DNA of 64,000 nucleotides. Source: Segetibacter koreensis DSM 18137. GTDB taxonomy: Bacteria; Bacteroidota; Bacteroidia; Chitinophagales; Chitinophagaceae. The notes below the pieces were generated by a model. It was not told where the DNA came from. It saw only the letters and a program-made list of their open reading frames with translations, and ran no database searches. The stretch's first letter is position 1, and the number at the start of each line of letters is the position of its first letter. The stretch spans positions 192,716 through 256,715 of the forward strand of contig NZ_KB893370.1 of assembly GCF_000374045.1 (NCBI RefSeq), given 5' to 3'. The translations under genes were made by a program, and so were the position numbers. Below are positions 26,882-44,123 of this stretch, in pieces.

Positions 26882-27976
26882 CTAACCAGATACATTCAAA
26901 TCTGCAAGGTTATTACCTTCTTCTACATAATAACTGAGGTTTTCTTTGGTAACGATATCAAGGGGCAGGTATTTTAAACCAGGCACTTTCTTTTTAAAAA
27001 CCAGGTAATCCGCCAAATGGTGTATTCCCCAAAAACCCTGTCCCTTTGGATTTTGATTTATAAGAAAACTGATTGATCCATTATTTAAGTAATGTATATT
27101 TTCAGAAATTAAATCATACCCGATTATTTTTATGTTTGAAATTTTTTTGTCCTCAAGATATTTTGCTATAACATGAGCTTTGGAAGTCGTTACAAAAATA
27201 CCTGCAAGATCTGGCGTATTACTAATAATCTCATCAAGCCTTTTATTGAAAACTTTCTGAGTGCAGCGGTTTAATTCAATTCTTAAAATGGTATACTTTT
27301 TATCCAGCTTATTTTTGGTGAAATAATTTCGAAAACCTTGCTCTTTTGTAATCAGGTGTGCAGCGTTACTTATTTCTTCGTCTATGTGAGCTATTAAAAC
27401 AGAGCAAGGATCCGGCAGTCCATACTGTAGTAATTTTCCTGCTAAACATCCGCTTTGAAAAGAGTCCTGGCCTATATAGCTCAAAGGATCATATTCGGCA
27501 ATTTGAGTATTAAATAATACAAAAGGAATATTTTGATTTTTCCATTTTTCAAAAAAAAGCAAACTCTGGCGATAGAATATGGGAGATAGAATAATGCCAT
27601 CAACATTATCTTCTGAAACTTCATTTGCTTTTTCTATAAATGAATTGACATCATAAGGATTAAAAATATATTGTTTTACAACAATTCCATACTGTTTAAG
27701 ATCCTTTTCCGCTTTTTCTATTCCGGATTTTGGAGCTTCCCAAAACGAATCAGTTAATGGGTTGGGGATTAAAGCAGCAAGCAAATACACTTTATGTGAA
27801 CCTAAGGCACGAGCCATAAGATTTGGCTCATAATTCATCTCTTCTAAAATTTTTAAAACATCTTCTTTTACTTTTTTAGATACCCTTCCTCTATCGTGTA
27901 TTACCCGGTCTACCGTTCCTGTTGACACGCCTGCTTTTTTTGCAATGTCTTTTATGCGCACTATATTATTTATCAT
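26882..27976 (-). CDS. LacI family transcriptional regulator (first)
   Basis: A 364-residue LacI/GalR-type repressor. The headpiece (residues ~7-58) carries IKDIAKKAGVSTGTVDRVIHDRGRVSKKVKEDVLKILEEMNYEPN; recognition helix TGTVDRV departs from the common STVSRAL, marking the branch with a Peripla_BP_4-like sensor seen in Bacteroidota. The effector domain includes NVDGIILSPIF, FVLFNTQIAEYDPLSYIGQDSFQSGCLAGKLL and KIIGYDLISENIHYLNNGSISFLINQNPKGQG, typical of ribose-binding-like folds, so a sugar effector is expected. It is upstream of the GH109 and CBM9-like genes in the same direction. It is probably a local sugar-responsive regulator; its operator is unknown, the 18-bp palindrome before SusC1 being one candidate. 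Confidence 0.93.
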   Translation of the reverse strand: MINNIVRIKDIAKKAGVSTGTVDRVIHDRGRVSKKVKEDVLKILEEMNYEPNLMARALGSHKVYLLAALIPNPLTDSFWEAPKSGIEKAEKDLKQYGIVVKQYIFNPYDVNSFIEKANEVSEDNVDGIILSPIFYRQSLLFFEKWKNQNIPFVLFNTQIAEYDPLSYIGQDSFQSGCLAGKLLQYGLPDPCSVLIAHIDEEISNAAHLITKEQGFRNYFTKNKLDKKYTILRIELNRCTQKVFNKRLDEIISNTPDLAGIFVTTSKAHVIAKYLEDKKISNIKIIGYDLISENIHYLNNGSISFLINQNPKGQGFWGIHHLADYLVFKKKVPGLKYLPLDIVTKENLSYYVEEGNNLADLNVSG

Positions 27977-28271: not shown

Positions 28272-29297
28272 TTACTGGCTATTACGGATTACCAACTTAG
28301 ATTCAATGATAATGTTGTTATAAGAAGGAGGTATATTTTCATCTTTGTTTTTGTTTAATAAGTCCAATAAAATTTCTGTAGCTTTCTGCCCTTGCTCATA
28401 TGGAAATTGCTCAACAGAAGCTGCAGGCGGAAAAGCCGTATAATGACTAAGGGGCAAATTTGCATAACTTACAAAAGTAATATCTTCATTTATCTTCATT
28501 TGCTGCCCCCTTGCATATTGCACAGCATCTAAAGCAACATAATCATTGAAGGCAACAATAGCGGTAGGTTTTCTACGCATTGTCGTTAGTTGCCGCATAG
28601 CATCATACGTGCCTTCCTTCGTCAGATCTGATGATACTATTAAAATTGGGTCATACTTTAGCCTGTGTTTCTTTATGGCTTTTAAATATCCTTCCAGCCT
28701 TTGCATGCTTGCCATCATTTTGTCCGGCCCATTGATCATCCCAATTATTCTATGTCCTTTATTTAATAAATAGCTAACTGCCTGTAGTGATCCCGATTGT
28801 ATGTTACACGCTACATAATGAATATCAGGCATATTTGGAATCCGGTCAAAAAACACAACAGGTATTGCATATTTTCTTAACGCCTCGAAATGGTCAAAAT
28901 TTATGGTATTCTTTGATATAGATACAATCAACCCATCGACGCGATGATTTTTCATCGTTTCGACAATTTGTTTTTCACGTTCTTCCTGATCGTGCGATTG
29001 CCCTAATAAAACAGTGTAATTATGTTTATTAGCAGTATCCTCAATAGCAGAAATAGCAGTAGAAAAAAATGCTTCAGATAACTCAGGCAGAATAACACCT
29101 AAAGTAAAAGTTTTTCGCTGCTGAAAAAAGATAGCTGTCTGGTTGGGCTCATAATTTAATTCATTTGCCACTTGCCTAACACGCATTTTCGTTCGCAAAC
29201 CTATACTTGAATGATCGTGTAAAGCCCTAGACACCGTAGAAACTGAAATATTAAGCCTTTTAGCGATTTCTTTTATTGTTGGTTGTTTAAATGTCAT
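28272..29297 (-). CDS. LacI family transcriptional regulator (second)
   Basis: A 341-residue canonical LacI/GalR repressor. The headpiece TIKEIAKRLNISVSTVSRALHDHSSIG is followed by the hinge region NELNYEPNQTAIFFQQRKTFTLGVILPELSEAFF, where the usual minor-groove residues are present, and by the sensor domain VDGLIVSISKNT, PVVFFDRIPNMPDIHYVACNI, RIIGMINGPDKMMASMQRLEGYLKAI and AIVAFNDYVALDAV. This class binds CpG-centred palindromes like AAACGTTT. Just such a palindrome lies 24-37 bp before its ATG with a second one 21 bp farther on, so autoregulation is likely, and the same pair occurs at 41.55 kb. It faces SusC2 divergently and is the best candidate controller of locus 2 and the amidohydrolase/acyltransferase pair. 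Confidence 0.95.
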   Translation of the reverse strand: MTFKQPTIKEIAKRLNISVSTVSRALHDHSSIGLRTKMRVRQVANELNYEPNQTAIFFQQRKTFTLGVILPELSEAFFSTAISAIEDTANKHNYTVLLGQSHDQEEREKQIVETMKNHRVDGLIVSISKNTINFDHFEALRKYAIPVVFFDRIPNMPDIHYVACNIQSGSLQAVSYLLNKGHRIIGMINGPDKMMASMQRLEGYLKAIKKHRLKYDPILIVSSDLTKEGTYDAMRQLTTMRRKPTAIVAFNDYVALDAVQYARGQQMKINEDITFVSYANLPLSHYTAFPPAASVEQFPYEQGQKATEILLDLLNKNKDENIPPSYNNIIIESKLVIRNSQ

Positions 29298-29320: not shown

Positions 29321-29353
29321 CGCAAACGTTTGCGCTACTTTCTCAATCGTTTG
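29321..29353. promoter_or_regulatory. Paired LacI-type operators upstream of lacI-2 / SusC2
   Basis: CGCAAACGTTTGCG (29321-29334) is a perfect 14-bp palindrome with core CAAACGTTTG at 29323-29332. CAATCGTTTG (29344-29353) differs by one base. The cores are offset by exactly 21 bp, about two helical turns. They lie between lacI-2 (starts at 29297, minus) and SusC2 (starts at 29635, plus). The CpG-centred form is typical for LacI/GalR proteins. Confidence 0.8.
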
Positions 29354-29489
29354 CACCCAGCTTTTAAAATTGGTAACTGAAAAAATATTTTTCGCACTAG
29401 ATAAAAATATTAACTTGAACAAAATTTTAACAATTTATAGTAAAATTCTCATAATAAGTTTTTTTTAAAGAATTTTTATTTCAAATATT

Positions 29490-29517
29490 TCAGTAAGAAA
29501 ATATCAGTAAGAAAATA
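29490..29517. repeat. Tandem 14-bp direct repeat in SusC2 leader
   Basis: TCAGTAAGAAAATA occurs twice head to tail (29490-29503 and 29504-29517), about 120-145 bp before the SusC2 ATG. It may be a slippage product or an activator site. Apart from this and the operators, 29298-29634 is AT-rich promoter DNA without a gene. Confidence 0.7.
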
Positions 29518-29634
29518 ATTGATTTTTTAGAAATGAAAATGAGAAAATCAGCCTTCCTTATATTTTATAATAAGGAAATTTAAAATTGACTTTAATTGTT
29601 TGAGTTTATTAAAACAAACCACAACACCACAACT

Positions 29635-32600
29635 ATGAATTCGCAAATTGCTTTTAAAGCTTTTGTCCTAATTTTTTTAAGCGGACTACCTGTTATTTTA
29701 CACACCAAAGTTTCCGCGCAGGCGGTGTCTTCCTCTTCGCGAAAAACGGTATCTGGTAAAGTAACTGATGAATCAGGGAATGGTCTTTCTGGTGTAACAG
29801 TTACTATAAGAGGAACACAGCAAGCCACACAAACGGACGCTAACGGCAATTACACAATTAATGCACCATCAAATGCAACGTTAGAGTTTTCATCTGTAGG
29901 TTTTGCCAGAAACACAGTCGAAACCAAAGGGAAAAGTACTGTAAATGCAACTTTAAGCGCTCAAACAAGTAATTTAAATGAGGTAGTTGTCGTTGGTTAC
30001 GGAACTCAACGAAAAGCTGACCTGACAGGTGCTGTGGGTTCAATAACAAGAAAAGATTTTGCTAATAAACCTTTTACCAGTCCGGACCAGATTTTGACTG
30101 GCCGTATAGCAGGTGTTAATATCACAAATCGTAGTGGAGATCCCGGTGCTCCTATTGAAGTGCGCATACGTGGTATTGGTACGGCCGGTAATAACCAGCC
30201 GCTTTGGGTAATTGATGGAGTACCTGTTGCAACAAATACAAGTACGATAACTGTAAACACAAATAGCGGTACTGAATCGAACCCTTTGTCCGGTATTAAC
30301 CCAAGTGATATTGAAAGTATTGATGTATTAAAAGATGCTTCTGCTACTGCTATATATGGTGCCCGTGCAAATAACGGGGTTATACTGGTCACTACTAAGC
30401 GGGGCAAGGCAGGTACTGCCGTACTTAGTTACGATGGATATGTCGGTGCTCAAGCGGTTCCAAAGGATAAATTATTTAAAGTGCTGAACACAGAGCAGTT
30501 TATCAAATTTCAAAAGGAGGGAATGGATAACGATTTTTCAGCTTTTGCCGGAAAACCTACTGTGGATTGGCAGGATTTGGTGTATAGGACCGGAGTTGCC
30601 ACTACCCATAACCTCACTGTATCCGGTGGAAACCAAAATGCCACTTATAGTTTTGGGGGAGGTTATTTCAAACAGGAGGGTATCCAAATAGCCCAGAACT
30701 TCGCCAGGTATTCGGCTAAAGCAACTTCAGATGTAAAAGTTGGTAAATACCTAAAATTTGGAGAGTCTCTTTTATTAGGTAGAACTGAAAGGCAGGTACA
30801 ATCAGAAGAAACGATGAATTCAGGATCTATTGCGACTACAAATGCTCCTTTTTTTCAGCCCTATAAGGCAAACGGGGAGTATAACCCGTCGAGTACCGCT
30901 AATACGGGCGGTGCGTCCGCGCAAAACCTGCTTTGGCAAAATGATCCGGGGGCGGGCTATACTAAATTGCAACATAACAAAATATTAGGAAACCTGTATG
31001 GAGAAATCGAACCAATAAAAGGTTTGAAGTATAAAGCCAGCATAGGTCTTGACTATAACGAAGCAACAGGTGTATTTTATCAGAATGCTATTGATTTTGA
31101 CGCCAGTGGCGCCCCACGAACCTCACTCATAGTAAATGAGCAGCCAAAAGAAGCAACGCTTACCTTGACACATACGCTTACTTATGACAAAACTTTTGGC
31201 AAAAATAAACTTACTGCTTTAGTTGGGTATGAGCAAACCAGTTACCTGCTACGTAGGTTAAGGGTACAGGCTAACGGCCTGTTTAACCCTCCTTTAGGAT
31301 TAGCGGGTGGAGCAGGCGCATTTGGTTCTTCAGAAACTGCCGATCATTGGAATATCCAGGGTAAATTGGCCCGCTTGTTTTATTCATACGACGAGCGGTA
31401 CCTGCTAACAGCTACGATAAGGGAGGATAAATCGTCACGGTTTGCTAAAGCAAATAATACAGGCTATTTTCCATCCTTCTCGGTTGGATGGAGGCTTAGC
31501 CAGGAGAAATTCTTAAAAGACTCGAAATTGTTTAATGATCTGAAAATCAGGGCTGGATGGGGTCAGTCTGGCAATCAGTTTACTGGTACTAATTTTTCCT
31601 ATCTCCCTGCGCTTAGCAGCAATGTAAAGTACGTGGTTGGCAAGGGCAACCAGGCCATTGTAACTGGCTACGCCCCCGTTTTGTTCGCTAATCCAGACTT
31701 AAAATGGGAAACAGCTATTCAGACAAATATCGGGCTTGACTTTTCCATGGTTAATTACAAGCTAAGTGGTTCTGTTGATTATTTCAGCAGGACAACCAAA
31801 GATTTGTTGATAAGCATTCCTGTAGCTTTAACTACCGGTTTTTACCAGTTTGCCGATTTAAACTCGGGTACTTTAACCAACAAAGGAGTTGAAGTTACTC
31901 TAAGTTACAGGGACAAAATTGGCGACTTTGGCTACAATGTTAGTGGTAATTTTACGCATGTAAAAAATCAATTTACGAAGCTTCCTGAAGGAATTGATTA
32001 TATTCAGCTCAACGATAAGCGAATTTCGGTGGGCAGGCCATTAGGTTATTTTTACGGGTATAAAACCGATGGTATATACCAAACCGATGCTGAAGTACCC
32101 ACTACAGAAGGATATGCTGGTGCAAAGGCGGGAGATATTAGATTTGTAGACGTGAATGGAGATAAAAAATTAACAGATGCCGATCGTACTTTTTTAGGAA
32201 GCCCTATTCCCAAATTTTTTTACGGAATGAGCTTAAACGGCAATTATAAGTCACTTGACTTGTCAATTGTATTGCAGGGCGTAGGTAACTATACGGTTTT
32301 TGACGGTCCTCGTTCAGGTCTGGAAAGCATGAGTGGAACTAGTAACCAAAGTGTTGCCGTGCTGGAGAGATGGACTCCGACTCATAAAACCAATAGCATG
32401 CCCCGTGCAAATAGCAGCTACAATACCAGCAACGGCTTTACTGATCGGTTTTTAGAAAACGCTGCCTTTCTTCGCGTAAAAAACCTGCAATTAGGTTACA
32501 ACATAAAATCAATTTCCAGTGCGACTAAAGGAGTTATTTCTTATGCCCGTTTTTATATAGGTGTATCGAACCTTTTTACATTTACCAAATACAAAGGTTA

Positions 32601-32724
32601 CGATCCCGAAGTTACAAGGCAGCAAAGTTTTGCAGGGGGAGAAAACCAGTTTTTAAATGGATATGATAACGGTAGTTCACCGCAACCAAGAATGTTTCAG
32701 TTAGGCTGGCAAATTAATTTTTAA
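29635..32724 (+). CDS. susC: SusC/RagA family TonB-linked outer membrane transporter (second)
   Basis: The ATG at 29635 begins a signal peptide, MNSQIAFKAFVLIFLSGLPV ending KVSAQ; an upstream TTG at 29596 is unlikely. The 1029-residue product has the regulatory beta-sandwich TVSGKVTDESGNGLSGVTVTI, the TonB box region NLNEVVVVGYGTQRKADLTGAVGSI, plug motifs GRIAGVNITNRSGDPGAPIEVRIRG, NQPLWVIDGVPV and DIESIDVLKDASATAIYGARANNGVILVTTK, and a barrel closing with MFQLGWQINF. It forms a transporter with SusD2, which starts 31 bp downstream. It is distinct from SusC1 in sequence, so the two loci probably take up different glycans. The paired LacI operators ~300 bp upstream suggest repression until an inducer sugar appears. 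Confidence 0.97.
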   Translation: MNSQIAFKAFVLIFLSGLPVILHTKVSAQAVSSSSRKTVSGKVTDESGNGLSGVTVTIRGTQQATQTDANGNYTINAPSNATLEFSSVGFARNTVETKGKSTVNATLSAQTSNLNEVVVVGYGTQRKADLTGAVGSITRKDFANKPFTSPDQILTGRIAGVNITNRSGDPGAPIEVRIRGIGTAGNNQPLWVIDGVPVATNTSTITVNTNSGTESNPLSGINPSDIESIDVLKDASATAIYGARANNGVILVTTKRGKAGTAVLSYDGYVGAQAVPKDKLFKVLNTEQFIKFQKEGMDNDFSAFAGKPTVDWQDLVYRTGVATTHNLTVSGGNQNATYSFGGGYFKQEGIQIAQNFARYSAKATSDVKVGKYLKFGESLLLGRTERQVQSEETMNSGSIATTNAPFFQPYKANGEYNPSSTANTGGASAQNLLWQNDPGAGYTKLQHNKILGNLYGEIEPIKGLKYKASIGLDYNEATGVFYQNAIDFDASGAPRTSLIVNEQPKEATLTLTHTLTYDKTFGKNKLTALVGYEQTSYLLRRLRVQANGLFNPPLGLAGGAGAFGSSETADHWNIQGKLARLFYSYDERYLLTATIREDKSSRFAKANNTGYFPSFSVGWRLSQEKFLKDSKLFNDLKIRAGWGQSGNQFTGTNFSYLPALSSNVKYVVGKGNQAIVTGYAPVLFANPDLKWETAIQTNIGLDFSMVNYKLSGSVDYFSRTTKDLLISIPVALTTGFYQFADLNSGTLTNKGVEVTLSYRDKIGDFGYNVSGNFTHVKNQFTKLPEGIDYIQLNDKRISVGRPLGYFYGYKTDGIYQTDAEVPTTEGYAGAKAGDIRFVDVNGDKKLTDADRTFLGSPIPKFFYGMSLNGNYKSLDLSIVLQGVGNYTVFDGPRSGLESMSGTSNQSVAVLERWTPTHKTNSMPRANSSYNTSNGFTDRFLENAAFLRVKNLQLGYNIKSISSATKGVISYARFYIGVSNLFTFTKYKGYDPEVTRQQSFAGGENQFLNGYDNGSSPQPRMFQLGWQINF

Positions 32725-32755
32725 AGTATACAAATCACAAGTATAAATCTTCTAT

Positions 32756-34324
32756 ATGAATATTAGAAAAAAATTTTTTCTACGTTTTCTTTTGGTAATT
32801 TTAGCCGCTATAAGCGTGGCAGCAATTGTTGTTTCCTGCAATAAACTCGATTTAACACCATTGGATAAAACCACGACCTCCACTTTTTTCAATAAAAAAT
32901 CTGATTTTGAAGGAGGCCTCTTTGCCGCCTACTCATCTATGCAGGATTTATATGCCGTTAACAGTGCCACAAGTTTTGGCGGACATAACGGGGCTGCCTC
33001 TTTTTGGGTAACAAGCATGCTTGCAAGCGATGATGCGCAGTTTAATACTTCTCAAAATAATTCAGACGTTGAGGTAATGGATGTAGATGCGCTGAACTTA
33101 AAACCAAATAACCGATTCATTTACACTGTATATGCCGAAACGTATGAAGGAATAAACAGGGCCAATATTGTGTTGGAGCAGGTTGATAATGGCAGAAACA
33201 ATCTTACCGATGAGGAGAAAAAGGTAGTTGTTGCAGAGGCAAAATTTATAAGAGGTTTCTTTCATTTTTTGGCCGCTCAAATGTGGAAAACAGCCCCGCT
33301 AATAACGGAAACAGCTAAAAAGCTTCAGCAAACTTTTAAAAATAGCGATCCAACAGCCCTTTTGCAGGCGAGTTTGGATGATTTCAAGGCTGCGGCTATA
33401 GATTTGCCAACTTCATGGGATGCCGCCTTTACAGGCCGTGCTACCAAATGGACAGCTCGGGCTTACGAAGGAAAAGTGGACGTGTGGATGGGAAAATGGG
33501 ATGATGCCGTAGTAGCCTTTGAAGATGTTGAAAAAAATGCCGGTTATCAATTGCTTCCCCAATACGACGATAATTTTGCCGTAACAAATGAGAACAACAA
33601 TGAGTCCATATTTGAAATTCAGTTTGGCGGACCTTACTCAGATGATAACAGCTGGATATTAGACGATAATGGCAATGAAGACTTTAAATCTACCCAGGGA
33701 ACATCTCGCCAATCGTTCTTTATTGCACTTACAGATGCAGGAGCCAATCGCTGGTTCGTGCCGACCAGGAAACTAAAAGACTTGTTTGACGAAGAACCTG
33801 CTGACAAAAGACTGGATGAATCTCTGTACTATAAAGAGGGTGAAGACTATACAGTATATGAAACAGGTTCAAATGTAATGAAATCAGGTGTGTTTACTAC
33901 GGCGCTCACTGGTCCTACATCTCTTTCTCCTACAGGCCTTGCCATAAAAAAATATTTAGGTAAAAAAAATGCTGACCCTGCTTATTATCGACAGGGGGTT
34001 AGCTTTAACAATGAGCGCTTTTTCCGGTATTCTGAATTGTTGCTATTGCACGCGGAAGCTTTATTAAGCGGGGGTAAACCTAAGGGCGGAAGTGTTTACC
34101 AAACGGCAGATGCCCTTGTAAACGCAACAAGGCAAAGGGCAGGGTTATCACCATTAACCGGCGTTTCTATGCAGCAGCTTCAAAAAGAAAAACAAAAAGA
34201 GCTTTGTTTTGAGCCCGCCAGGTATTTTGATATGATACGATGGAATATCGGGGGAGCTAAAATATTCCCCTTCCCGCAAGATGAAATTGACAGGAACCAT
34301 GGAAGCCTGGTACAAAATCCGTAA
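32756..34324 (+). CDS. susD: SusD/RagB family lipoprotein (second)
   Basis: A 522-residue surface glycan-binding lipoprotein with signal peptide ending AIVVSC (Cys28), then NKLDLTPLDKTTTSTFFNKKSDFEGGLFAAYSSM, the standard SusD N-terminus. The helical core has AEAKFIRGFFHFLAAQMWKTAPLITE and ATKWTARAYEGKVDVWMGKW; the second half has RFFRYSELLLLHAEALLSGG, KQKELCFEPARYFDMIRW and IFPFPQDEIDRN, and ends at QNP, two or three residues short of the usual ending. It works with SusC2, 31 bp upstream. Downstream lies a dead FG-GAP gene and then an intact one, an arrangement (SusC, SusD, FG-GAP) known from Bacteroidota glycan loci. Confidence 0.96.
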   Translation: MNIRKKFFLRFLLVILAAISVAAIVVSCNKLDLTPLDKTTTSTFFNKKSDFEGGLFAAYSSMQDLYAVNSATSFGGHNGAASFWVTSMLASDDAQFNTSQNNSDVEVMDVDALNLKPNNRFIYTVYAETYEGINRANIVLEQVDNGRNNLTDEEKKVVVAEAKFIRGFFHFLAAQMWKTAPLITETAKKLQQTFKNSDPTALLQASLDDFKAAAIDLPTSWDAAFTGRATKWTARAYEGKVDVWMGKWDDAVVAFEDVEKNAGYQLLPQYDDNFAVTNENNNESIFEIQFGGPYSDDNSWILDDNGNEDFKSTQGTSRQSFFIALTDAGANRWFVPTRKLKDLFDEEPADKRLDESLYYKEGEDYTVYETGSNVMKSGVFTTALTGPTSLSPTGLAIKKYLGKKNADPAYYRQGVSFNNERFFRYSELLLLHAEALLSGGKPKGGSVYQTADALVNATRQRAGLSPLTGVSMQQLQKEKQKELCFEPARYFDMIRWNIGGAKIFPFPQDEIDRNHGSLVQNP

Positions 34325-34399
34325 CAGAGTAATATATTATTATACTTATATTTGTTGATAGCTAGTAGCCTTTAAAAAACATGATACATACAGTTTTTA

Positions 34400-34997
34400 G
34401 GGAAGTTTCTTCATCCAAGAGAGCGGGTGCATTTTAATTTGCGAAACTTTTAGCAGCGCGTAAATTCAAAATCTGGGAAATGGCAAGTTGGTAATTTAGA
34501 ATCTTCTGATAGAAGCAAAATTTGCCCCAATCAATTGCATGGCATCTGAAGATTTTAATGCCGATGGTGACTTGGATATTTTATGTACGGGAAATTCGCG
34601 TAACAGAAGCACAAACAAGCCCTTACGTTGCTGCGCGTAGTTTTCTTCTTGGGTAAATGGCAAAGGGAATTTTACGGTAGACAGGAAACAGATCGATGTT
34701 ATCGGAGATGACAATGCGGTAGTGGAAATAGCAGGTACAAATGATTCGTCTATGTTTCTTAACACCAGCAGTTCTAATAGTCTTCATGCTTATCGTTTGA
34801 ATAAGCCTAATCATAAGTTAGGTCCCTTTAATCCGGATGATACTTACACAAGTACTACCTTTCGTAACAGTATGAAATGCTGGCAGCAGTTTTATTATGG
34901 CAGTTCTTATCTATCACAATCCAGTGGTCGATTAACAATTTCACCCAACATTCAAACGGTTGTTATCTATAGTTTTTTTGAAGAAAACGCAAATTGA
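34400..34997 (+). pseudogene. C-terminal remnant of an FG-GAP/VCBS repeat gene
   Basis: The frame from 34443 to the TGA at 34995-34997 reads as the end of a paralogue of the intact gene that follows: EAKFAPINCMASEDFNADGDLDIL against EAQFAPVFGMIASDYNNDGNMDIL, GKGNF, and QQFYYGSSYLSQSS against QEFYYGSNYLSQSS. Three in-frame stops interrupt it, at 34461 (TAA), 34497 (TAG) and 34638 (TAG), with no frameshift in this part. Weak similarity reaches back to ~34400 in another frame. About 1000 residues of the N-terminal part are gone. It is therefore the stump of a tandem duplicate of the next gene, positioned directly after SusD2. Nothing else is seen in 34325-35001. Confidence 0.85.
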
Positions 34998-35001
34998 ACT
35001 T

Positions 35002-38000
35002 TTGAATAAACGCAAAAATCATATAAATCCAATTTTCAATACTATTTGTTGGACATTAGCGACCTGTGTATTAGGGTTATTATTTGTCTCATGCAACCAC
35101 AAGCAAACCTTATTTCAAATGCTTCCTTCATCGCAAACGGGCATTCACTTTAATAACAAAGTGGAAGAAAATGATAAATACAACGTATTTGAGTATATGA
35201 ATATCTATACGGGGGCGGGAGTAGCAGCCGGAGATATAAATAATGATGGACTGGTTGACTTGTATTTCAGTGGAAATGAAACACCTGGTAAATTATACTT
35301 AAACAAAGGAAATTTTAAGTTTGAAGATATTACAGAGAAAGCAGGGCTACTGACAAACCGGTGGTGCACAGGGGTTTCAATGGTAGATATAAACGGTGAT
35401 GGTTTTCTTGATATTTATGTGAATGTTGCCGGCAGTTCAAAATTCGGTGATACCCATAACCTTTTTTATATCAATAATGGGTTTTCTCATTCACCTGGTA
35501 ACTCTCCGAACCGGCAAGTCACGTTTACCGAAAAAGCGACTGAATATGGTGTTGCTGAAACAAGGCAAACAATGAATGCATCTTTTTTTGATTATGATAG
35601 AGATGGCGATCTTGACCTTTTTCTAATAACTAATCCAGCCGATGAAATGGTCGCCGGGGTAAATGATGTCCATGGAAGAAAAGTAAACGGTGAGTCTTTA
35701 GGGACAGATATTCTTTACCGGAACAACGGCGCCTCACCTTCAGGTGATCTTACATTTTCAGATGTATCGAGAGAGGCAGGAATTTTAGTTGAAGGGTACA
35801 GTCTTGGCGCAGCTATCAGCGATGTTAACGGAGATGGGTGGCCGGATATTTATGTGTCAAACGATTTTTTAACTAACGATATTTTATACATAAATAATGG
35901 TAATGGAAGTTTTAGTGATAAGACTGCGGAGTGTTTAAAGCATACAAGCTTTGCTTCGATGGGAAATGATATTGCTGATTTTAATAATGATGGCCTTCCT
36001 GATATTTATACACTTGATATGTTGCCCGAAGACAACTATCGAAAAAAAATGATCATTCCGGCAGGCGGCTACGACAAGTTCCAGCTTTTACTTCAGCGGG
36101 GCTATGAGCCACAATACACGCGAAATGCGCTGCAGTTAAATAATGGTAACGGTACGTTTAGCGATATCAGTTTTTTGTCCGGGGTGAGCAGTACCGACTG
36201 GAGCTGGAGTGCATTGTGGGCCGATTACGATAATGATGGAGATAAAGATCTTATGGTCACCAATGGATTTTACCGCGATCTTGGAAACCTGGATTATATC
36301 AATTATCAGCCGCGAAAACAAAATCCAATGGGCACGAGAGCGTCAAGGGTGGAAGAAAAACTTAAGGCTATAAAAAACCTTGAAGAAGTACCGCTGCAGA
36401 GTTATCTTTTCGAAAATAATAATGATCTTACTTTAACCAAACGATCAGACGACTGGGGATTTACACAAAAAGGTTTTTCGAACGGCGCTTGTTATGCTGA
36501 CCTTGACAACGATGGTGACCTTGATTTAGTTATTAATTGTTTTAATTCTGAAGCAAAAATTTACAGGAACAACGGCGAGACAAATAAGAATACTTACCTG
36601 AATATCCTGTTGAAAGGTAAGAAACCAAACACCCAGGGCATCGGCGCCAAACTGTATGTTTATACTAATGGTAAAATGCAGTTCCAGGAATTTTATCCTT
36701 ATCGTGGCTACGAATCTTCGGTTGAACCTGTGGTACATTTCGGATTAGGAAGGTATAAGAAAGCAGACAGTTTAAAAATTATCTGGCCCGACGGAAGTGA
36801 ACAAACGGAGTATAACGTAAAGGGAGGCCAAATTCTACAGATTGATTTTGATGTAAAAGATCAGATTTCAAATAAACCACAAAATGTAGCAAAGCATCAG
36901 GAAATTTTTTCGGATATAACAGGTAAAACGGGGCTCGTCTATCAGCATAAAGAAGCTGACTTTGAAGATTTTAAGATACAGCCCTTACTCCCTCACATGT
37001 TCTCTAAAAACGGACCGGGGATAGCAGTCGGGGATGTAAATGGAGATGGCAGAGAAGATTTTTTTATCGGTGGCACTGCAGCGGGGAATGGCAGTTTTTT
37101 CTTTCAGAGTAAAGATGGAAGCTTTATTCAACATCCGTTGGAAAAAAAATCATTGTCAGATGATATGGGTGTCTTACTGTTTGATGCCGATAATGATAAC
37201 GATCTCGACTTATATATAGTAGGTGGAGGTTCTGAAAGTCAGGAAAACTCAGAAGAATACCAGGACGCTTTTTTTAAAAATGATGGTAAGGGCAACTTCC
37301 GGTTGATCTCAGGGGCATTACCAGATACAAAAGCAAGTGGCTCGTGTGTAGTTGCTTCCGACTACGATCACGATGGTGATCTAGATCTTTTTGTTGGCGG
37401 TAGAGTTTCTCCCGGCAATTATCCTTTGCCTCCACGAAGTTATCTGTTGCGTAATGATAGTCACCCGGCTGACGAAAATATAGCAGGGGAGGCATCGGAA
37501 GTGACGGTAAAATTTACTGATGTCACCAGCCAGGTTTGCCCATATCTTTCAAATATCGGAATGGTCACATCGGCATTATGGTCAGATTACGATAATGACG
37601 GCTGGCAGGATCTGGTGCTTGCAGGTGAATTCAAGCCTTTGACTTTTATTAAAAATGAAAAAGGAAGGCTGAATAAAATGGTGACTGTTGAACATTCGAG
37701 CGGATGGTGGAACAGTATTACGGCGGCCGATTTTGACAATGACGGAGATATTGATTACGTTGCAGGCAACCTCGGCCTTAATAGCCGGCACAAAGCAACA
37801 GTAAAAGAACCCCTTTGCATTTATGCAAAAGACTATGACAAGGACGGACGGATTGACCCAATCATGTGTTATTATGTAAATGGCAAAAACTACATTTATC
37901 CAACACGCGACGAGATCATAAAGCAGATCAATTCCATGCGGCGACGTTTTCCTTCTTACGCTGACTATGCTAAAGCCACTTTCGAAGAATCTTTTTTACC

Positions 38001-38613
38001 GACAGAAATCTCAGATGCATATGTTATAAAAAGCGAGTGTTTTGAGAGTAGTTACTTTGAAAATAAGGGGAACGGTAGTTTTATAAGAAAGCCACTTGTT
38101 GTGGAAGCACAATTTGCCCCTGTTTTTGGGATGATTGCAAGTGATTATAATAATGATGGAAACATGGATATTTTAATTGCCGGTAATTCGTACAGCACTG
38201 AGGTTTCAACGGGAAGGTATGATGCTATGGAAGGATTGCTGTTGTCAGGTGATGGAAAAGGAAATTTTAAGCCGCTAAAAAGTTCTGTTACGGGTTTTAA
38301 AGCAGACAGAGATGTAAAAGGCCTTGCAGAAATTACTGCTAACGGCTCAGAGGTAATTTTAGTTGCGAATAATGATAATAATATGCAGGCTTTTCAATTT
38401 AAGGAAAAGCCTGCAAGTATCATTTCTATCAAAAACACTGACGCTTATGCTATTGTAAAAAAGAAAAATGGGCGATTTTACCGGCAAGAGTTTTACTATG
38501 GCAGCAATTACCTTTCGCAGAGCTCGAGAAAGTTGAAAGTTGGTAAAGATGTAAATTCTATTGACATTTTTGATTATAAAGGAAACAGCAGAAAGGAAGT
38601 TTTACCCCGTTAA
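35002..38613 (+). CDS. FG-GAP/VCBS repeat and ASPIC/UnbV domain lipoprotein
   Basis: No ATG precedes the mature part. The TTG at 35002 gives NKRKNHINPIFN then a hydrophobic core TLATCVLGLLFVSC with a lipobox, so I take it as the start; a TTG at 34960 overlaps the dead upstream copy. The ~1203-residue protein has many calcium-type DxDxDG loops (GDINNDGLVDLY, DINGDGFLDIY, DYDRDGDLDLF, DVNGDGWPDIY, DFNNDGLPDIY and more), forming two beta-propellers, and between them an ASPIC/UnbV domain (NTYLNILLKGKKPNTQGIGAKLYV ... LKIIWPDGSEQ, about residues 520-605). It ends FYYGSNYLSQSSRKLKVGKDVNSI. Such proteins are encoded with SusC/SusD pairs and probably bind glycans on the surface; no catalytic role is known. 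Confidence 0.92.
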   Translation: MNKRKNHINPIFNTICWTLATCVLGLLFVSCNHKQTLFQMLPSSQTGIHFNNKVEENDKYNVFEYMNIYTGAGVAAGDINNDGLVDLYFSGNETPGKLYLNKGNFKFEDITEKAGLLTNRWCTGVSMVDINGDGFLDIYVNVAGSSKFGDTHNLFYINNGFSHSPGNSPNRQVTFTEKATEYGVAETRQTMNASFFDYDRDGDLDLFLITNPADEMVAGVNDVHGRKVNGESLGTDILYRNNGASPSGDLTFSDVSREAGILVEGYSLGAAISDVNGDGWPDIYVSNDFLTNDILYINNGNGSFSDKTAECLKHTSFASMGNDIADFNNDGLPDIYTLDMLPEDNYRKKMIIPAGGYDKFQLLLQRGYEPQYTRNALQLNNGNGTFSDISFLSGVSSTDWSWSALWADYDNDGDKDLMVTNGFYRDLGNLDYINYQPRKQNPMGTRASRVEEKLKAIKNLEEVPLQSYLFENNNDLTLTKRSDDWGFTQKGFSNGACYADLDNDGDLDLVINCFNSEAKIYRNNGETNKNTYLNILLKGKKPNTQGIGAKLYVYTNGKMQFQEFYPYRGYESSVEPVVHFGLGRYKKADSLKIIWPDGSEQTEYNVKGGQILQIDFDVKDQISNKPQNVAKHQEIFSDITGKTGLVYQHKEADFEDFKIQPLLPHMFSKNGPGIAVGDVNGDGREDFFIGGTAAGNGSFFFQSKDGSFIQHPLEKKSLSDDMGVLLFDADNDNDLDLYIVGGGSESQENSEEYQDAFFKNDGKGNFRLISGALPDTKASGSCVVASDYDHDGDLDLFVGGRVSPGNYPLPPRSYLLRNDSHPADENIAGEASEVTVKFTDVTSQVCPYLSNIGMVTSALWSDYDNDGWQDLVLAGEFKPLTFIKNEKGRLNKMVTVEHSSGWWNSITAADFDNDGDIDYVAGNLGLNSRHKATVKEPLCIYAKDYDKDGRIDPIMCYYVNGKNYIYPTRDEIIKQINSMRRRFPSYADYAKATFEESFLPTEISDAYVIKSECFESSYFENKGNGSFIRKPLVVEAQFAPVFGMIASDYNNDGNMDILIAGNSYSTEVSTGRYDAMEGLLLSGDGKGNFKPLKSSVTGFKADRDVKGLAEITANGSEVILVANNDNNMQAFQFKEKPASIISIKNTDAYAIVKKKNGRFYRQEFYYGSNYLSQSSRKLKVGKDVNSIDIFDYKGNSRKEVLPR

Positions 38614-38713
38614 AACACAAGTTTTACCTTTTCAAATAATTACTGCTTTTCTGCATGTAAACCAATTGGAATCACTCATGTCGGTGAATTATTTTTAGCA
38701 TAAAAAATAGAAA

Positions 38714-40150
38714 TCAGGCTTTATCTATCTCATTAGCTACGCGATTAGCTGACCTTGTAGACGCTTCCATTCCCCAGTTTAGATTGTCTGCATACGCACC
38801 GGCAAAATGAATACGACCAACCGGAGCCATTACATTGGGCCAAAACTTATGCAGTTCACCGATAGGAAAGCTAAGTCGTTCACAGGTATAAGAATAAGTT
38901 TCTTTTGTCCAGTCCCTGCTTACGGCCTGTTCAATAGTATCTTTTTTACCAGGATACAATTCTCTGAATGCAGCAAGTGCTCTCTGTACGGAAATACCTC
39001 CGGGCCCGGTTCCTAATATGATTACCCTGTGTGTATCTACTTCATCTGCACTTTGCCAGACCGACCAAAGATCAGGATGCTCAAATTCCATATTAATGCT
39101 TAGATTATCATTAAGCCAAAATTTTGAACTGGCCTGAAAAACAAAACGCTGATATGAATCGTAAGCAAGACTATCAACTATATATTTTTTTTCCGGTGGC
39201 AACGCAGGTGTCACAGGAATATTTTTGAAAGCAGGCAGAGGAATGCAATTAACAAGAAAATCAGCAGTCATTTCCTGTTCTTCATTGATTTGGCGATACT
39301 TCACCGATACTCCCGTAGGGCTATGTTGTATAGAAAGAATAGGACTATTTAACCACACTCGTGCACCTAGTTTTTTAGCAAATGCATTTGGCATCATCTG
39401 GTTTCCATCTTTTAGACGATATACTTCTACAGGAAACTGTGGCACTCCCCTTAACTTTAATATTGCCGATCTCCATAATTCAAATAAGGCAGAGGAATTT
39501 TTACCGCCAAGAAAACCTAAAGCCGTAGCCGAAGCTCCATCTTTTTTATAAATATCAGCAACCGGGATTTTATCTAAATGATCATAACCAACATTGAAAG
39601 GCTGATATTCATCCGTAAACTTGTCGAGGTATGGACTTACATATAAAGATTCTAAATCCCAAAAAGGATTTTTTGATAAATGTTTTACTTCTTTTTCATT
39701 AAAACCTAATTTTCTTAACACTGTAGGATCGGCTAACATTTCCTCAGTATAGAATTTACCACCAATTTGCCTTAAAAGATTTTTTCGTCTTGGATAAGCA
39801 AGAGGTGTCAGGTTTAATTCTTTGGTATACTCCCAATATTTTTCGTACCCTGGTTTTGTGAAATGCTCAGCTCCGAAATCGCCATACAAACCATCAGAAA
39901 GTCCATCATGAACTGTCATTACATGTCCACCATGTCGGCCCGATGCTTCCAGCACGGTTACCTCATGTCCTTTTTTCATTAATTCATAAGCGGTACAAAG
40001 TCCTGCTATGCCGGCTCCGGCAACTATCACTTTTTTTACTTTCTTTTGATTACTTTCATTGTTTGCAAGTAAATCGTTGCTAAGAACTGTGGTTCCTATG
40101 CCTGCTATTGCAGTGTTTTTAATAAATTCTCTTCTTCCTAATGGATTCAT
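38714..40150 (-). CDS. FAD-dependent amine oxidase-like oxidoreductase
   Basis: A 478-residue flavoenzyme with a twin-arginine-like leader (LGRREFIKNTAIAGIGTTVLS), so it is probably exported folded with its cofactor. The FAD Rossmann segment KVIVAGAGIAGLCTAYELMKKGHEVTVLEASGR (about 40-72) plus GGHV is the classic amine oxidase/phytoene desaturase signature; a C-terminal FAD-contact motif FAGAYADNLNWGMEASTRSANRVANEI closes it. The substrate may be an amine, an amino sugar or another alcohol-like group. It is downstream of the amidohydrolase on the same strand, separated by 235 bp containing a perfect hairpin, so it may have its own or attenuated expression. It faces the FG-GAP gene convergently. 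Confidence 0.88.
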   Translation of the reverse strand: MNPLGRREFIKNTAIAGIGTTVLSNDLLANNESNQKKVKKVIVAGAGIAGLCTAYELMKKGHEVTVLEASGRHGGHVMTVHDGLSDGLYGDFGAEHFTKPGYEKYWEYTKELNLTPLAYPRRKNLLRQIGGKFYTEEMLADPTVLRKLGFNEKEVKHLSKNPFWDLESLYVSPYLDKFTDEYQPFNVGYDHLDKIPVADIYKKDGASATALGFLGGKNSSALFELWRSAILKLRGVPQFPVEVYRLKDGNQMMPNAFAKKLGARVWLNSPILSIQHSPTGVSVKYRQINEEQEMTADFLVNCIPLPAFKNIPVTPALPPEKKYIVDSLAYDSYQRFVFQASSKFWLNDNLSINMEFEHPDLWSVWQSADEVDTHRVIILGTGPGGISVQRALAAFRELYPGKKDTIEQAVSRDWTKETYSYTCERLSFPIGELHKFWPNVMAPVGRIHFAGAYADNLNWGMEASTRSANRVANEIDKA

Positions 40151-40268
40151 CGTTAGAGGTTTTAATTTTTGAAAAACGAAGCAGTAACGGCAAGAACTAA
40201 CTTTTTTAAAAGCAGGTCAGAAAAGCTGAATAAAGAGACAGAAAGTACAAGTGAGTGACACAACAATG

Positions 40269-40300
40269 TTTAATAGTGCTTGAATGCTGGCACTATTAAA
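40269..40300 (-). terminator. Perfect 11-bp hairpin between amidohydrolase and flavoenzyme genes
   Basis: TTTAATAGTGC (40269-40279) and GCACTATTAAA (40290-40300) pair perfectly around a 10-base loop. It lies 86 bp past the amidohydrolase stop and 119 bp before the flavoenzyme start on the minus strand. No long T-run follows, so it may be a weak terminator, an attenuator or a transcript stabiliser. Confidence 0.5.
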
Positions 40301-40385
40301 TATTTCTTATTCACCAATAGTATTTAATTGCTTTTCTGATAAAATATGATTTTTGAAAAATTTATTTAAAAAAAACAAATCAGTT

Positions 40386-41483
40386 TTAACGGCTCAATAT
40401 TTTTTTCCCATTCTCACTATATAACTTTTTCAATGTAGCATCTGTAAGTGACAATCCATATAACGGCCAGTGATATCCAAATTGATTATGCTCATAAAAA
40501 TGTTCATCGGCCGTCTCGAGAATACGAAAAGTAGTATGATACATTTCCTTATCGGGCCCCATATCTGTTCCATATACGAGTCGGTTGTTATATTTTTCTA
40601 TAAACGCATGTACATAGCGCGGTATGGGTGCAAGTTCTCCATAACGTGCTGCAATATCAGCGTACAGGTTTGGATATTTATCGAATAACCTTCCTAAAAC
40701 ACTTAAGTCTGAACAAGTATTAGCCAGGTGACAAGCAATAAAAGTTGTTTTCGGATTATTTCTTACTGCATTCTCTAAGGTTGTAATTAATTCATCGTGA
40801 CCAATTATTCCTTTTTTCGTAAGATCAACCTGCCATTTCGATGAATTCATTAATCCATCATTTGTAGAGTCAGGTTTTTGGTACATCCATGCATCTTCGG
40901 CAACGTGAATACTTATCGGCATATGCAATTCTCCACATTTCTCTATCAAAGGTTTCATGCGGGCATCATCTATGTGTATGCCCCAGCCCGGTGTTGGCGT
41001 AGAATAAAATTCTCCCAAGCCTTTGTCACCTAATTCACCCACTCCTCTTGCTCCTTTTTTGTAACATCTTTCCAGTTCTGCCACAGCCTTCTTTTCCCAC
41101 CCTGGTTTGTCATTATCCGTATAATCAAAGCCGCACCAGACTTCAAACCTGTTCTTATAACGACTATATTTATCAATTACAGAATCAAGACGTTTTCCTG
41201 TCGAATAGGAAAGAATAATTGTTTTTGCAATACCTGCATTGTCCATTGTTTTTACCCATTCGTCTACTTCTGCATCAGATTTAGGATAGTCGTGAGAATG
41301 AAAATCTATAGCAGCAAATTTTGCTTTTTCAACGTTCGTTTGTGGTACCTTGTAAATGGAAACGGGGCGATAATCTTTTAGTTTCAGATTATTTACATCG
41401 GGCTCACTCTGCGAAAAGGCAACCAGCGAAACAACCTGTAATACTGCAAAAAAAGTCAGTGGATATAAACTTTTAATTTTCAA
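40386..41483 (-). CDS. Amidohydrolase family 2 protein
   Basis: A 365-residue secreted amidohydrolase (amidohydro_2 type). A signal peptide precedes FSQ at ~25. The TIM-barrel has the metal motif IDFHSHDY (His62, His64), a central RGVGELGDKGLGE, ISIHVAEDAWM with a metal His near 190, FIACHLANTCSDLSVL with a second His, and the closing RLVYGTDMGPD Asp. Such enzymes hydrolyse or decarboxylate lactones, uronate-like or aromatic acids. It shares a divergent 228-bp promoter with the acyltransferase gene, where two LacI-type operators lie 69-99 bp before its ATG, so it is likely co-regulated with SusC2 by lacI-2. The product may convert a sugar lactone released by the flavoenzyme or dehydrogenases, but this is inference. 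Confidence 0.85.
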   Translation of the reverse strand: MKIKSLYPLTFFAVLQVVSLVAFSQSEPDVNNLKLKDYRPVSIYKVPQTNVEKAKFAAIDFHSHDYPKSDAEVDEWVKTMDNAGIAKTIILSYSTGKRLDSVIDKYSRYKNRFEVWCGFDYTDNDKPGWEKKAVAELERCYKKGARGVGELGDKGLGEFYSTPTPGWGIHIDDARMKPLIEKCGELHMPISIHVAEDAWMYQKPDSTNDGLMNSSKWQVDLTKKGIIGHDELITTLENAVRNNPKTTFIACHLANTCSDLSVLGRLFDKYPNLYADIAARYGELAPIPRYVHAFIEKYNNRLVYGTDMGPDKEMYHTTFRILETADEHFYEHNQFGYHWPLYGLSLTDATLKKLYSENGKKILSR

Positions 41484-41551
41484 GTAATAAAAATTTTAAT
41501 TGTGAAAAGTTGTTTGCTAAATATAAATAAACAATATAACAAAAAGTTGCA

Positions 41552-41582
41552 CAAACGTTTGCGTATTAAAATCAAACGTTTG
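41552..41582. promoter_or_regulatory. Paired LacI-type operators in divergent promoter
   Basis: CAAACGTTTG occurs twice, at 41552-41561 and 41573-41582, offset by exactly 21 bp, between the amidohydrolase (minus, starts 41483) and the acyltransferase (plus, starts 41712). The core is identical to the perfect site at 29323-29332, and the spacing is identical to that of the pair there. The second copy overlaps no gene. Both divergent genes could be controlled from here. Confidence 0.82.
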
Positions 41583-41711: not shown

Positions 41712-42833
41712 ATGAATGTCGTAACCGCTTCTCCCCTATTAAACACTAACAAACGGTTAGTCTCCCTTGACTTTGTACGGGGGCTTACAATGGTACTCTT
41801 AACACTTGAAAGCACAGAGTTATACGCTCACCTTCATCATGCTTTAGAAGGTACGGCGGGAGAACATGTAATGAACCAGTTTTTTCATCATCCATGGCAT
41901 GGATTGCATTTGTGGGACCTGGTGCAGCCGGTTTTTATGTTTGTTGCAGGTACTGCAATGGCTTTTTCTATAAAAAAGCAAAGAGAACATGCAACATGGG
42001 GGCATACATTTACCAAAGTGCTTAAAAGAAGTGGATGGCTGTTTTTTTGGGGTGTTTTAGATTATGCGGTAAGAAAAAATGGTCTTTCATTTGAACTCTG
42101 GGATGTACTTACCCAACTGGCTTTTACTACTTTAGTTACTTTTCTTATTATAGATTTTCCTGTAAGTATACAACTGGGGGTGAGTATATTATGCCTTTTA
42201 TTACCTGAATTTCTTTATCGCTATACGCACATACCAAATTTTGATCAGCCTTTTACTGACCAGCATAACTTCGGAAACTATATGGATCTTGTTTTAATGA
42301 ACAAGATCAACAAAGATGGCTGGGTGGCCATTAATTGTATATCGACGAGTGCGCATACTATCTGGGGAATGATGGCAGGCCAACTTCTTTTAAGTAATAA
42401 GACTTATAGCGAGAAGATGAAGTATCTTCTTATAACCGGCATTACTTTATTAATTCTTGGTTTTGGACTTGACGGATCAGGTATTACTCCCATCATTAAA
42501 AGAATAGCAACAAGTTCTTTTGTACTTGCATCAGGAGGTTGGTGTATACTGTTTCTTGCAGTATCGTATTGGTGGATCGACATAAGACAACATCAAAAGA
42601 ACCTTTTTTTATTCATGATATTTGGCATGAACTCTATTTTTATTTACCTGTTTTTTGAAATTGTAGGCGCAAGATGGTTTACAGGCTATGTTTTCGATAT
42701 TACTAATGGCTTATTCGCAATTATTCATTTTCCAAAAATAGCTGCAGAAATATTAGGATCATTGGTAGTATTTGCTTTGGAAGCGGGCATGCTTTATTTT
42801 TTATATCGCAAGAAAATATTCTTTAAATTATAA
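41712..42833 (+). CDS. DUF5009/HGSNAT-like membrane acyltransferase
   Basis: A 373-residue polytopic protein with about ten membrane helices. It starts with RLVSLDFVRGLTMVLLTLES, the signature of the DUF1624/DUF5009 group related to heparan-alpha-glucosaminide N-acetyltransferase, followed by HHPWHGLHLWDLVQPVFMFVAGTAMAFS, containing the conserved His/Asp pair in which His may be the active-site residue in human HGSNAT-like enzymes. These proteins move acetyl groups across the inner membrane onto sugar amines. Here the divergent amidohydrolase, the GH109-type enzyme and the flavin amine oxidase nearby suggest work on amino sugars. It is transcribed divergently from the amidohydrolase with shared LacI-type operators. 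Length and topology are normal for the family. Confidence 0.85.
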   Translation: MNVVTASPLLNTNKRLVSLDFVRGLTMVLLTLESTELYAHLHHALEGTAGEHVMNQFFHHPWHGLHLWDLVQPVFMFVAGTAMAFSIKKQREHATWGHTFTKVLKRSGWLFFWGVLDYAVRKNGLSFELWDVLTQLAFTTLVTFLIIDFPVSIQLGVSILCLLLPEFLYRYTHIPNFDQPFTDQHNFGNYMDLVLMNKINKDGWVAINCISTSAHTIWGMMAGQLLLSNKTYSEKMKYLLITGITLLILGFGLDGSGITPIIKRIATSSFVLASGGWCILFLAVSYWWIDIRQHQKNLFLFMIFGMNSIFIYLFFEIVGARWFTGYVFDITNGLFAIIHFPKIAAEILGSLVVFALEAGMLYFLYRKKIFFKL

Positions 42834-43013: not shown

Positions 43014-44123
43014 ATGGTAAAAAAATTTCTATTGCTGCCAACAGCCTTATTACTTTCTTTTCTTTTTCTATCTTCAACTACGTTTGCATTGCCATCTAAA
43101 AAAGCAGCAAAGGGTTTTGTTATTAAAAGAGGTACAAATATTAGCCACTGGCTTTCTCAAAGTGAGGCCAGGGGTGACGAAAGACGAAATTATTTTACAA
43201 AAAAAGATGTGAAATACCTGGTCGGCCTCGGCTTTGATCATATTCGCATTCCTGTAGATGAAATGCAACTGTGGCAGGAAGACGGAGAGCAGGACAAAGA
43301 AGGATTTTCACTTTTGCAGCAGGCGCTTGAATGGTGCAGGGAATATAATCTTAAGGCTGTTGTAGATCTTCATATTTTACGCTCCCATCATTTTAATGAA
43401 AAGGAAAAACCGTTGTGGACACAACCTGCTGCGCAGGAACGTTTTTTTCAATGCTGGCGGGATTTATCAAATGCACTAAAAAAATATCCTGTAGCAGATG
43501 TCGCATATGAACTAATGAATGAGCCGGTAGCAGATGACCCTGAAGACTGGAACAAACTGGTTGAAAAGGCTGTGGCAATTATTCGCAAAACTGAACCGAA
43601 GCGAAAATTAGTTATCGGATCTAACCTTTGGCAAAGCCCGGACACTTTTGACAAATTACGTATTCCAGAAAACGATGAAAATATCATCCTGAGCTTTCAT
43701 ATGTATGAACCATTTTTGCTAACGCATCATGAAGCATCCTGGACACGTATTAAAGACTATAAAGGACCGGTAAATTACCCTGGTGTAATTGTGAAGGAGG
43801 AAGACCTAAAAAATTTGCCCGACAGTTTAAGGAAAGAGATCTTAAAAAATAAAAATTATTATACTAAAGAAACGATAGCCGCACATTTCGCTAAACCCAT
43901 TGCTATTGCGAAACAATACAAACTGCCTCTATACTGTGGAGAATGGGGTTGTTTAACCACCGTGCCGGATGCCGCACGTTTTCAATGGTTTCGCGATGTA
44001 AAATCGGTTTTGGAAGAAAATAACATTGCCTGGGCAACATGGGAGTATAAAAGTGATTTTGGCATAATCAACAAAAAAGGGCAGGAAGAAAAAGAATTAA
44101 TTCAGATTTTAATGGGAAAATAG
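43014..44123 (+). CDS. Glycoside hydrolase family 5 (cellulase-like)
   Basis: A 369-residue secreted GH5 enzyme with a signal peptide (residues 1-25, TTFA). The (beta/alpha)8 barrel has the family landmarks: GTNISHWLSQ at the start, FDHIRIPVD (conserved Arg/Pro), AVVDLH, YELMNEP with acid/base Glu170 after Asn169, FHMYEP (His229, Tyr231) and the nucleophile Glu310 in LPLYCGEWG. GH5 cleaves beta-glucans, mannans or xylan-related chains with retention of configuration. The subfamily cannot be set from motifs alone. It is 180 bp after the acyltransferase and 144 bp before the fused dehydrogenase, in the same direction. It probably supplies oligosaccharides to the SusCD systems. Confidence 0.93.
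   Translation: MVKKFLLLPTALLLSFLFLSSTTFALPSKKAAKGFVIKRGTNISHWLSQSEARGDERRNYFTKKDVKYLVGLGFDHIRIPVDEMQLWQEDGEQDKEGFSLLQQALEWCREYNLKAVVDLHILRSHHFNEKEKPLWTQPAAQERFFQCWRDLSNALKKYPVADVAYELMNEPVADDPEDWNKLVEKAVAIIRKTEPKRKLVIGSNLWQSPDTFDKLRIPENDENIILSFHMYEPFLLTHHEASWTRIKDYKGPVNYPGVIVKEEDLKNLPDSLRKEILKNKNYYTKETIAAHFAKPIAIAKQYKLPLYCGEWGCLTTVPDAARFQWFRDVKSVLEENNIAWATWEYKSDFGIINKKGQEEKELIQILMGK

Follow-up and report, generated by a model that had tools for sequence, protein, structure and literature searches.

The window analysed here is a stretch of 64,000 nucleotides from Segetibacter koreensis DSM 18137 (contig NZ_KB893370.1, positions 192,716 to 256,715). It contains two pairs of palindromes, here called doublets, one next to the regulator gene lacI-2 and one in a divergent promoter region. 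All positions are those of the window, and the features concerned are the following.

28272-29297, minus strand: lacI-2, a LacI-family regulator of 341 residues
29323-29353: doublet 1, CAAACGTTTG-N11-CAATCGTTTG, a predicted tandem LacI-2 operator for lacI-2 autoregulation and possibly for susC2
29635-32724, plus strand: susC2, a SusC/RagA TonB-dependent receptor (TIGR04056); the open reading frame (ORF) is listed from TTG 29596, and ATG 29635 is the likely start
32756-34324, plus strand: susD2, a SusD-family lipoprotein
40386-41483, minus strand: an amidohydrolase (PF04909), with doublet 2 in its upstream region
41552-41582: doublet 2, CAAACGTTTG-N11-CAAACGTTTG, a predicted tandem LacI-2 operator in the divergent amidohydrolase/nagX promoter region
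41712-42833, plus strand: a NagX-like membrane acyltransferase (NF046061 119 bits, under the cut-off of 480; weak match to heparan-alpha-glucosaminide N-acetyltransferase)

The arms of doublet 1 are CAAACGTTTG at 29323-29332 and CAATCGTTTG at 29344-29353. Doublet 2 has CAAACGTTTG at both 41552-41561 and 41573-41582. The offset is 21 bp, or two helix turns, in the two doublets alike. A first-pass annotation of this DNA had reported these four sites with this offset, and had located doublet 1 between lacI-2 and susC2 and doublet 2 in the divergent amidohydrolase/acyltransferase promoter; the sequence confirms it and refines the distances. From doublet 1 it is 25 bp to the lacI-2 ATG and 281 bp to the likely susC2 ATG; from doublet 2 it is 68 bp to the amidohydrolase TTG (41483) and 129 bp to the nagX-like ATG (41712).

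Rarity of the doublets in the genome

Single sites allowing up to one mismatch are not enriched in the window, with 5 seen vs 3.38 expected. Across the whole genome of 6,104,304 bases, exact CAAACGTTTG occurs 10 times and its reversed pattern 13 times. The degenerate CAAWCGWTTG is found 37 times vs 26 for the reversed control, and the longer GCAAWCGWTTGC, with up to one mismatch, 74 times vs 36. The paired form CAAWCGWTTG-N11-CAAWCGWTTG is present at two places only, both inside the window, with none for the reversed control. From 37 single sites, the Poisson probability of two pairs at a given offset is 2.4e-8. Given this value and the occurrence of only two doublets genome-wide, the doublets are not a product of chance. 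A doublet can tell real LacI sites from chance, which a single palindrome cannot. The annotation had proposed such a genome-wide search and had named wide random occurrence of the double motif as its refuter; no such occurrence was seen.

The 37 CAAWCGWTTG sites comprise 4 in the doublets, 27 in coding sequence by ORF calls and 6 in intergenic regions. On contig C12 a single site precedes, by 191 bp, a run of esterase-like, NagB-like, NagP-like, NagA, GH20, PQQ and NahK-like genes. The NagA product scores above its NCBIfam cut-off, and the NagB and NagP matches fall below theirs. On contig C10 an exact CAAACGTTTG lies 62 bp upstream of a GH109 gene. Two further intergenic sites, C1:180091 and C57:77692, have no clear sense.

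Recurrence of the sites in the family

LacI-2 carries both domains of the LacI/GalR family, PF00356 at 53.4 bits (cut-off 27) and Peripla_BP_1 at 111.8 bits, and its best solved-structure chains are CcpA, then PurR. Of the 195 genomes of the family, 87, its own included, hold relatives of LacI-2 (E 1e-70), with 106 matches in 51 of 101 genera. LacI-2 belongs to a clade of 25 rows (support 100/98), 14 of which have an N-acetylhexosamine-1-kinase-like (NahK) gene within three genes; the NahK-like name comes from PDB matches with E values of 3e-47 and 2.6e-53. The own genome encodes seven LacI DNA-binding domains. Within this set, CAAWCGWTTG stands at the gene start of only lacI-2 and a frameshifted paralogue on contig C68.

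The surroundings of LacI-2 relatives were examined in 72 loci of the 105 non-self relatives, leaving out G150 and the 32 weakest. These loci, 1.14 Mb in total with overlapping stretches kept in the site counts, were picked by protein rather than by motif. They are reported alone because the 92-locus scan adds NagP loci from 24 genomes chosen partly for doublets. The 72 loci hold 118 CAANCGNTTG sites, and four control palindromes give 22, 23, 14 and 10. Site pairs within 10-60 bp number 19, vs 0 for the controls. The offsets of these pairs are 21 bp (five pairs), 22 bp (four), 27 bp (four) and 13 bp (two), with one pair each at 28, 39, 45 and 47 bp. An exact CAANCGNTTG lies within 200 bp upstream of the relative in 22 loci (shuffles, mean 0.26, maximum 3), placing a palindromic, CG-centred site in promoter regions.

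Six of the 72 loci encode NagX no more than three genes away from lacI. In G170, G034, G055 and G193, which represent three genera, nagX is adjacent and divergent to lacI; the arrangement in G095 resembles this, but the ORF calls overlap there. In G034 an exact doublet with the 21-bp offset lies in the 125-bp gap between lacI and nagX, and another, degenerate one with the same offset is found 111 bp before SusC. What is a single lacI-nagX divergon in G034 thus appears in the window as two loci 12 kb apart, with a doublet at each.

The spacing was surveyed by searching the 195 genomes for CAAACGTTTG-N(1-31)-CAAACGTTTG, which gave 26 places (reversed control, 3). Seven of them have an offset of 21 bp, eight of 22 bp and six of 17 bp, and offsets of 13, 27, 28, 33 and 35 bp occur at one each. 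The 17-bp class (L139-L144, six genomes of three genera) has a TetR-type gene downstream in all six cases, followed in L141 by genes of the OEP, HlyD and EmrB types. It shows no link to LacI-2, a relative of which is present in three of the six genomes. The class is probably a conserved operator of another regulator with the same core, and it was dropped as support for LacI-2. Since it always precedes TetR, the 21/22-bp offsets make up 15 of the remaining 20 places. A degenerate form of the N11 doublet, in which two positions of each site are W, gave 12 places in 10 genomes, with one control place.

Outside the own genome there are 18 places with a 21/22-bp offset. A SusC-type receptor gene lies directly downstream at eight of them (L119, L122, L123, L126, L128, L130, L135 and L136), the doublets starting about 90-180 bp before SusC. 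Four more stand at GH123 (L137), GH20 (L125), GH109-NahK (L132) and lacI/nagX (L073) genes. A LacI-2 relative is present in all eight other genomes with exact 21/22-bp doublets (P 0.0012). Site pairs of this spacing recur before genes across genomes.

NagP was searched in 24 genomes with LacI-2 relatives, giving 57 matches, and 30 loci were examined. A site lies within 250 bp upstream in 8 of the 30 NagP-like loci, with 0-1 for the controls; 20 larger NagP stretches, mostly covering the same genes, gave 7 (controls 0-1). Together with the C12 site, these place candidate operators before nag catabolic and transport genes. In other genera the sites and doublets thus recur before lacI-2 relatives, nagX, nagP, SusC and amino-sugar hydrolase genes.

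A changed recognition helix goes with a changed site. The four members of one subclade (L094, L106, L146 and L151) carry K in the recognition helix immediately ahead of STVSR, at a position (17 in the E. coli LacI numbering) that is filled by V, I, P or another residue in the others. Three of the four have CAACCGGTTG doublets at 27 bp, and the upstream sequence of the fourth, L094, is only 37 bp long. This co-variation of helix and site links the site to the LacI protein.

A longer array was observed in G034, where four CAANCGNTTG sites lie between NagP-like and NagB-like genes (L230 8714-8871), three of them at 28-bp steps. As the same genome has 21-bp doublets at lacI-nagX and SusC, one regulator may possibly use two spacings. 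By eye, TGAAAT is present in five of nine spacers of 27/28-bp doublets (L106 9317-9353 and 10507-10543, L230 8714-8779, L134 8031-8068), and in one L106 spacer it sits inside a TGTGAAATAAAATCACA palindrome. A second regulator may perhaps bind between two LacI dimers in these doublets.

LacI-2 as a candidate amino-sugar repressor

The doublets are probably tandem operators of LacI-2, a predicted repressor of the use of N-acetylhexosamines, namely N-acetylglucosamine (GlcNAc) and N-acetylgalactosamine (GalNAc), whose regulon the single sites would widen. Judged from sequence, the most likely role of LacI-2 is that of an autoregulated repressor for amino-sugar use, acting much as Shewanella NagR does, with tandem operators of the RafR/ScrR kind. 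Without inducer, two LacI-2 dimers would occupy the same face of the DNA as neighbours, 21 bp or two turns apart, perhaps binding cooperatively. LacI-2 at its own promoter would lead to autorepression, and at the divergent amidohydrolase/nagX promoter to repression of that pair. Single sites of the same sequence would bring the C12 nag operon and the C10 GH109 gene into the regulon. The inducer may be a sugar or a derivative arising from amino-sugar breakdown, and would release LacI-2.

The first-pass annotation had assigned the transporter, a hydrolase and the acyltransferase to one lacI-2 regulon. For the acyltransferase and its neighbours this is strengthened by the G034 doublet, the 72-locus enrichment and the recurring 21/22-bp offsets. 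The inclusion of susC2 is less sure because doublet 1 lies 281 bp away, and control of susC2 from doublet 1 is the weakest link. The annotation had not seen that the acyltransferase is NagX-like, that the theme of the regulon is amino-sugar use, or that its reach would extend beyond the window to C12 and C10.

SusC/D loci in Bacteroidota are usually described as being under sigma/anti-sigma or hybrid two-component control. Pfam scans of 38 window ORFs (of 47 of at least 100 residues) gave no gene of these kinds, which the annotation had called absent. If the proposal is true, the window offers a testable amino-sugar regulon in which SusC/D loci are under LacI control. Both cooperativity and specificity can be tested directly, through the natural spacing classes and the matched change of helix and operator.

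Known systems offer several parallels. In Shewanella, NagR, a LacI-family protein, is reported to control nagP, nagK-nagB-nagA, a hexosaminidase gene and the gene of an outer-membrane TonB-dependent transporter, and GlcNAc to suppress NagR binding (PMC3223726, PMC2996990). The predicted LacI-2 regulon likewise joins a LacI regulator with nag catabolic, transport and hexosaminidase genes, and nagX is listed in the Shewanella pathway. The likeness is one of regulon gene content; unlike Shewanella, the present system has SusC/SusD, and its kinase is NahK-like rather than NagK.

As to spacing, a LacI-family survey gives intersite distances that peak at 13, 22 and 32 bp (PMC4052901). RafR of Enterobacteriales and ScrR of Burkholderiales have doublets only, at 21-22 bp, which its authors read as cooperative binding of two dimers (PMC4052901). 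The word Bacteroidetes is absent from the main text of that survey. The double sites described here share the 21-22 bp spacing. The regulators and lineages differ, and single sites (C12, C10 and many relatives) and the 27/28-bp class occur here too; doublets are therefore not obligatory in this system.

In Bacteroides thetaiotaomicron, the mucin/GalNAc locus BT4240-50 has a predicted extracytoplasmic function (ECF) sigma/anti-sigma pair, the likely regulator according to its authors (PMC11992087). It resembles the present case in being a polysaccharide utilization locus that includes a GH109 and a predicted protein of the phosphotransferase family, and differs in having ECF sigma/anti-sigma where LacI stands here. 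None of the open-access titles and abstracts that the literature searches listed describes a LacI amino-sugar regulon or tandem LacI operators of Bacteroidota, which is no proof of absence. As far as the literature was searched, the kind of switch is known, and the host and the combination are new.

Several observations weigh against the proposal. The C12 and C10 sites are single, not doublets. An exact site within 200 bp is missing in 50 of the 72 LacI-2 relatives, and only four (L073, L093, L102 and L170) have a 21/22-bp doublet at the lacI promoter. None of the four NagP genes nearest the own NagP (67-76% identity) has a site. The co-occurrence of exact doublets with LacI-2 relatives gives a P of only 0.024 when compared with genomes of at least 3.9 Mb, and in the wider doublet set a relative is present in 11 of 12 genomes (P 0.03). 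Six of the 18 places with a 21/22-bp offset have no clear amino-sugar link: a DUF3472 gene (L121), a 186-residue gene (L120), a glucosidase-like gene (L129), a site inside an ORF (L131), a 1103-residue gene without a Pfam match (L127; a GH123 gene lies 509 bp off on the other side), and a type IX secreted protein in G100, a genome without a LacI-2 match (L138). The helix co-variation is one evolutionary event. Placement of promoters by the Bacteroidota -7/-33 and sigma-70 consensus gave none that is clear.

Close footprinting is not available, because LacI-2 is present in one of the ten genomes of its genus and missing from the other nine. The nag operons of G197 and G199, of the same genus, have no site, the nearest having two mismatches. 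No long conserved block appears when their upstream regions are aligned with that of the own C12 operon. As these regions hardly align, the missing site is weak evidence. In a third nagA relative of the genus, G196, a contig end leaves the operon upstream region absent from the assembly.

An evolutionary extension of the proposal is tentative and, in our estimate, rather doubtful. The LacI subfamily, found in 51 of the 101 sampled genera, may have taken over SusC/D amino-sugar loci with one operator sequence whose copies keep one of two set spacings. The lacI, nagX and SusC promoters would have the 21/22-bp spacing, and the 27/28-bp spacing would belong to nagP promoters and to the K-helix subclade. 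LacI-2 would then have captured a resident nag operon by operator gain.

A narrower regulon deserves serious consideration, with a chance that we put somewhat below even. Doublet 1 would serve lacI-2 autoregulation only and not susC2, leaving lacI-2, nagX and the amidohydrolase as the regulon in the window. The distances of 25 bp to lacI-2 and 281 bp to susC2 favour it, as does the nearer position of the relatives' doublets before SusC. On the other hand, no other candidate site is present between lacI-2 and susC2, the 21/22-bp doublets in the family neighbour SusC genes more often than any other kind of gene (8 of 18), and according to PMC4052901 some 7% of LacI-family sites are found over 200 bp upstream.

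The sites could also be LacI-family operators read, in part or entirely, mainly by a paralogue, the C29 LacI or LacI-1, with LacI-2 as one of several proteins sharing the sequence. The C29 LacI (L264 4577-5602), which adjoins a NagB-like gene, has the same recognition helix as LacI-2, ISVSTVSRAL, and this too counts against LacI-2 as the sole reader. CG-centred palindromes are, moreover, the rule in the LacI family (PMC4052901). However, CAAWCGWTTG is found neither on contig C29 nor at the starts of the other intact LacI genes, a doublet stands at lacI-2's own promoter, and sites of this kind occur with LacI-2 relatives (with nagX as well in G034). LacI-1 (26882-27976), which adjoins lacI-2, has another recognition helix (STGTVDRV) and a Peripla_BP_4 sensor domain. 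A paralogue as the main reader is thus unlikely.

That the palindromes are RNA or DNA hairpins, for instance terminators, is very improbable. Terminator-like matches do overlap the first arm of doublet 1, one per strand (2 vs 0.1 expected from shuffles), but doublet 2 has none, and the sites lie upstream of gene starts, form pairs of fixed offset and co-vary with the LacI recognition helix. With the matches confined to doublet 1, a terminator or hairpin was rejected as the main role. Chance palindromes in an AT-rich genome, as the near-chance frequency of single sites and the 27 coding positions among the 33 sites outside doublets might suggest, are scarcely credible in view of the rarity and recurrence of the doublets and are contradicted by the genome-wide, 195-genome and 72-locus counts.

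Other genes and sites

Further features of the window are listed below.

17328-19223, minus strand: GH123-type gene, with susC1 (20929-24015) and susD1 (19481-20917)
25372-26742, minus strand: GH109-type gene, without an upstream motif; the C10 gene preceded by a site is its paralogue
34953-34962: CAAACGGTTG, a single exact match to degenerate CAANCGNTTG between susD2 and an FG-GAP/ASPIC gene; membership doubtful
43014-44123, plus strand: GH5-type glycoside hydrolase, the next gene past nagX on the same strand

The GH5-type gene is a possible regulon member by its position. No motif lies near the GH123-type gene, susC1 or susD1, and these genes show the amino-sugar theme of the locus only. Beside the GH109, GH123 and GH5 types the locus has a CBM9 type, and the window also carries SusC/SusD pairs and type IX sorting domains. 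The gap between susD2 and the ASPIC gene (34325-34960) seems, by eye, to be a degraded FG-GAP/ASPIC gene fragment, with the single CAAACGGTTG (34953) at its end. A search of the genome's own contigs for related loci gave one remote match (24% identity, L013), which was not used.

The frameshifted LacI paralogue of C68 (L111 8900-10200) is akin to LacI-2. Beside it stands CAAACGTTTG, with a second, poor site at an offset of 22 bp, and a sodium:solute symporter and a DHDPS-family gene are nearby.

On contig C3 a site lies 279 bp upstream of a DUF5107/TPR gene (L118 6467-6476). From its length the gene had been guessed to be a SusC, which was rejected on the Pfam result. In G055 a doublet (L119 8027-8057) is located between SusC and a divergent DUF5107/TPR gene of the same family as that of C3, and a gene of this kind is perhaps a member of the regulon.

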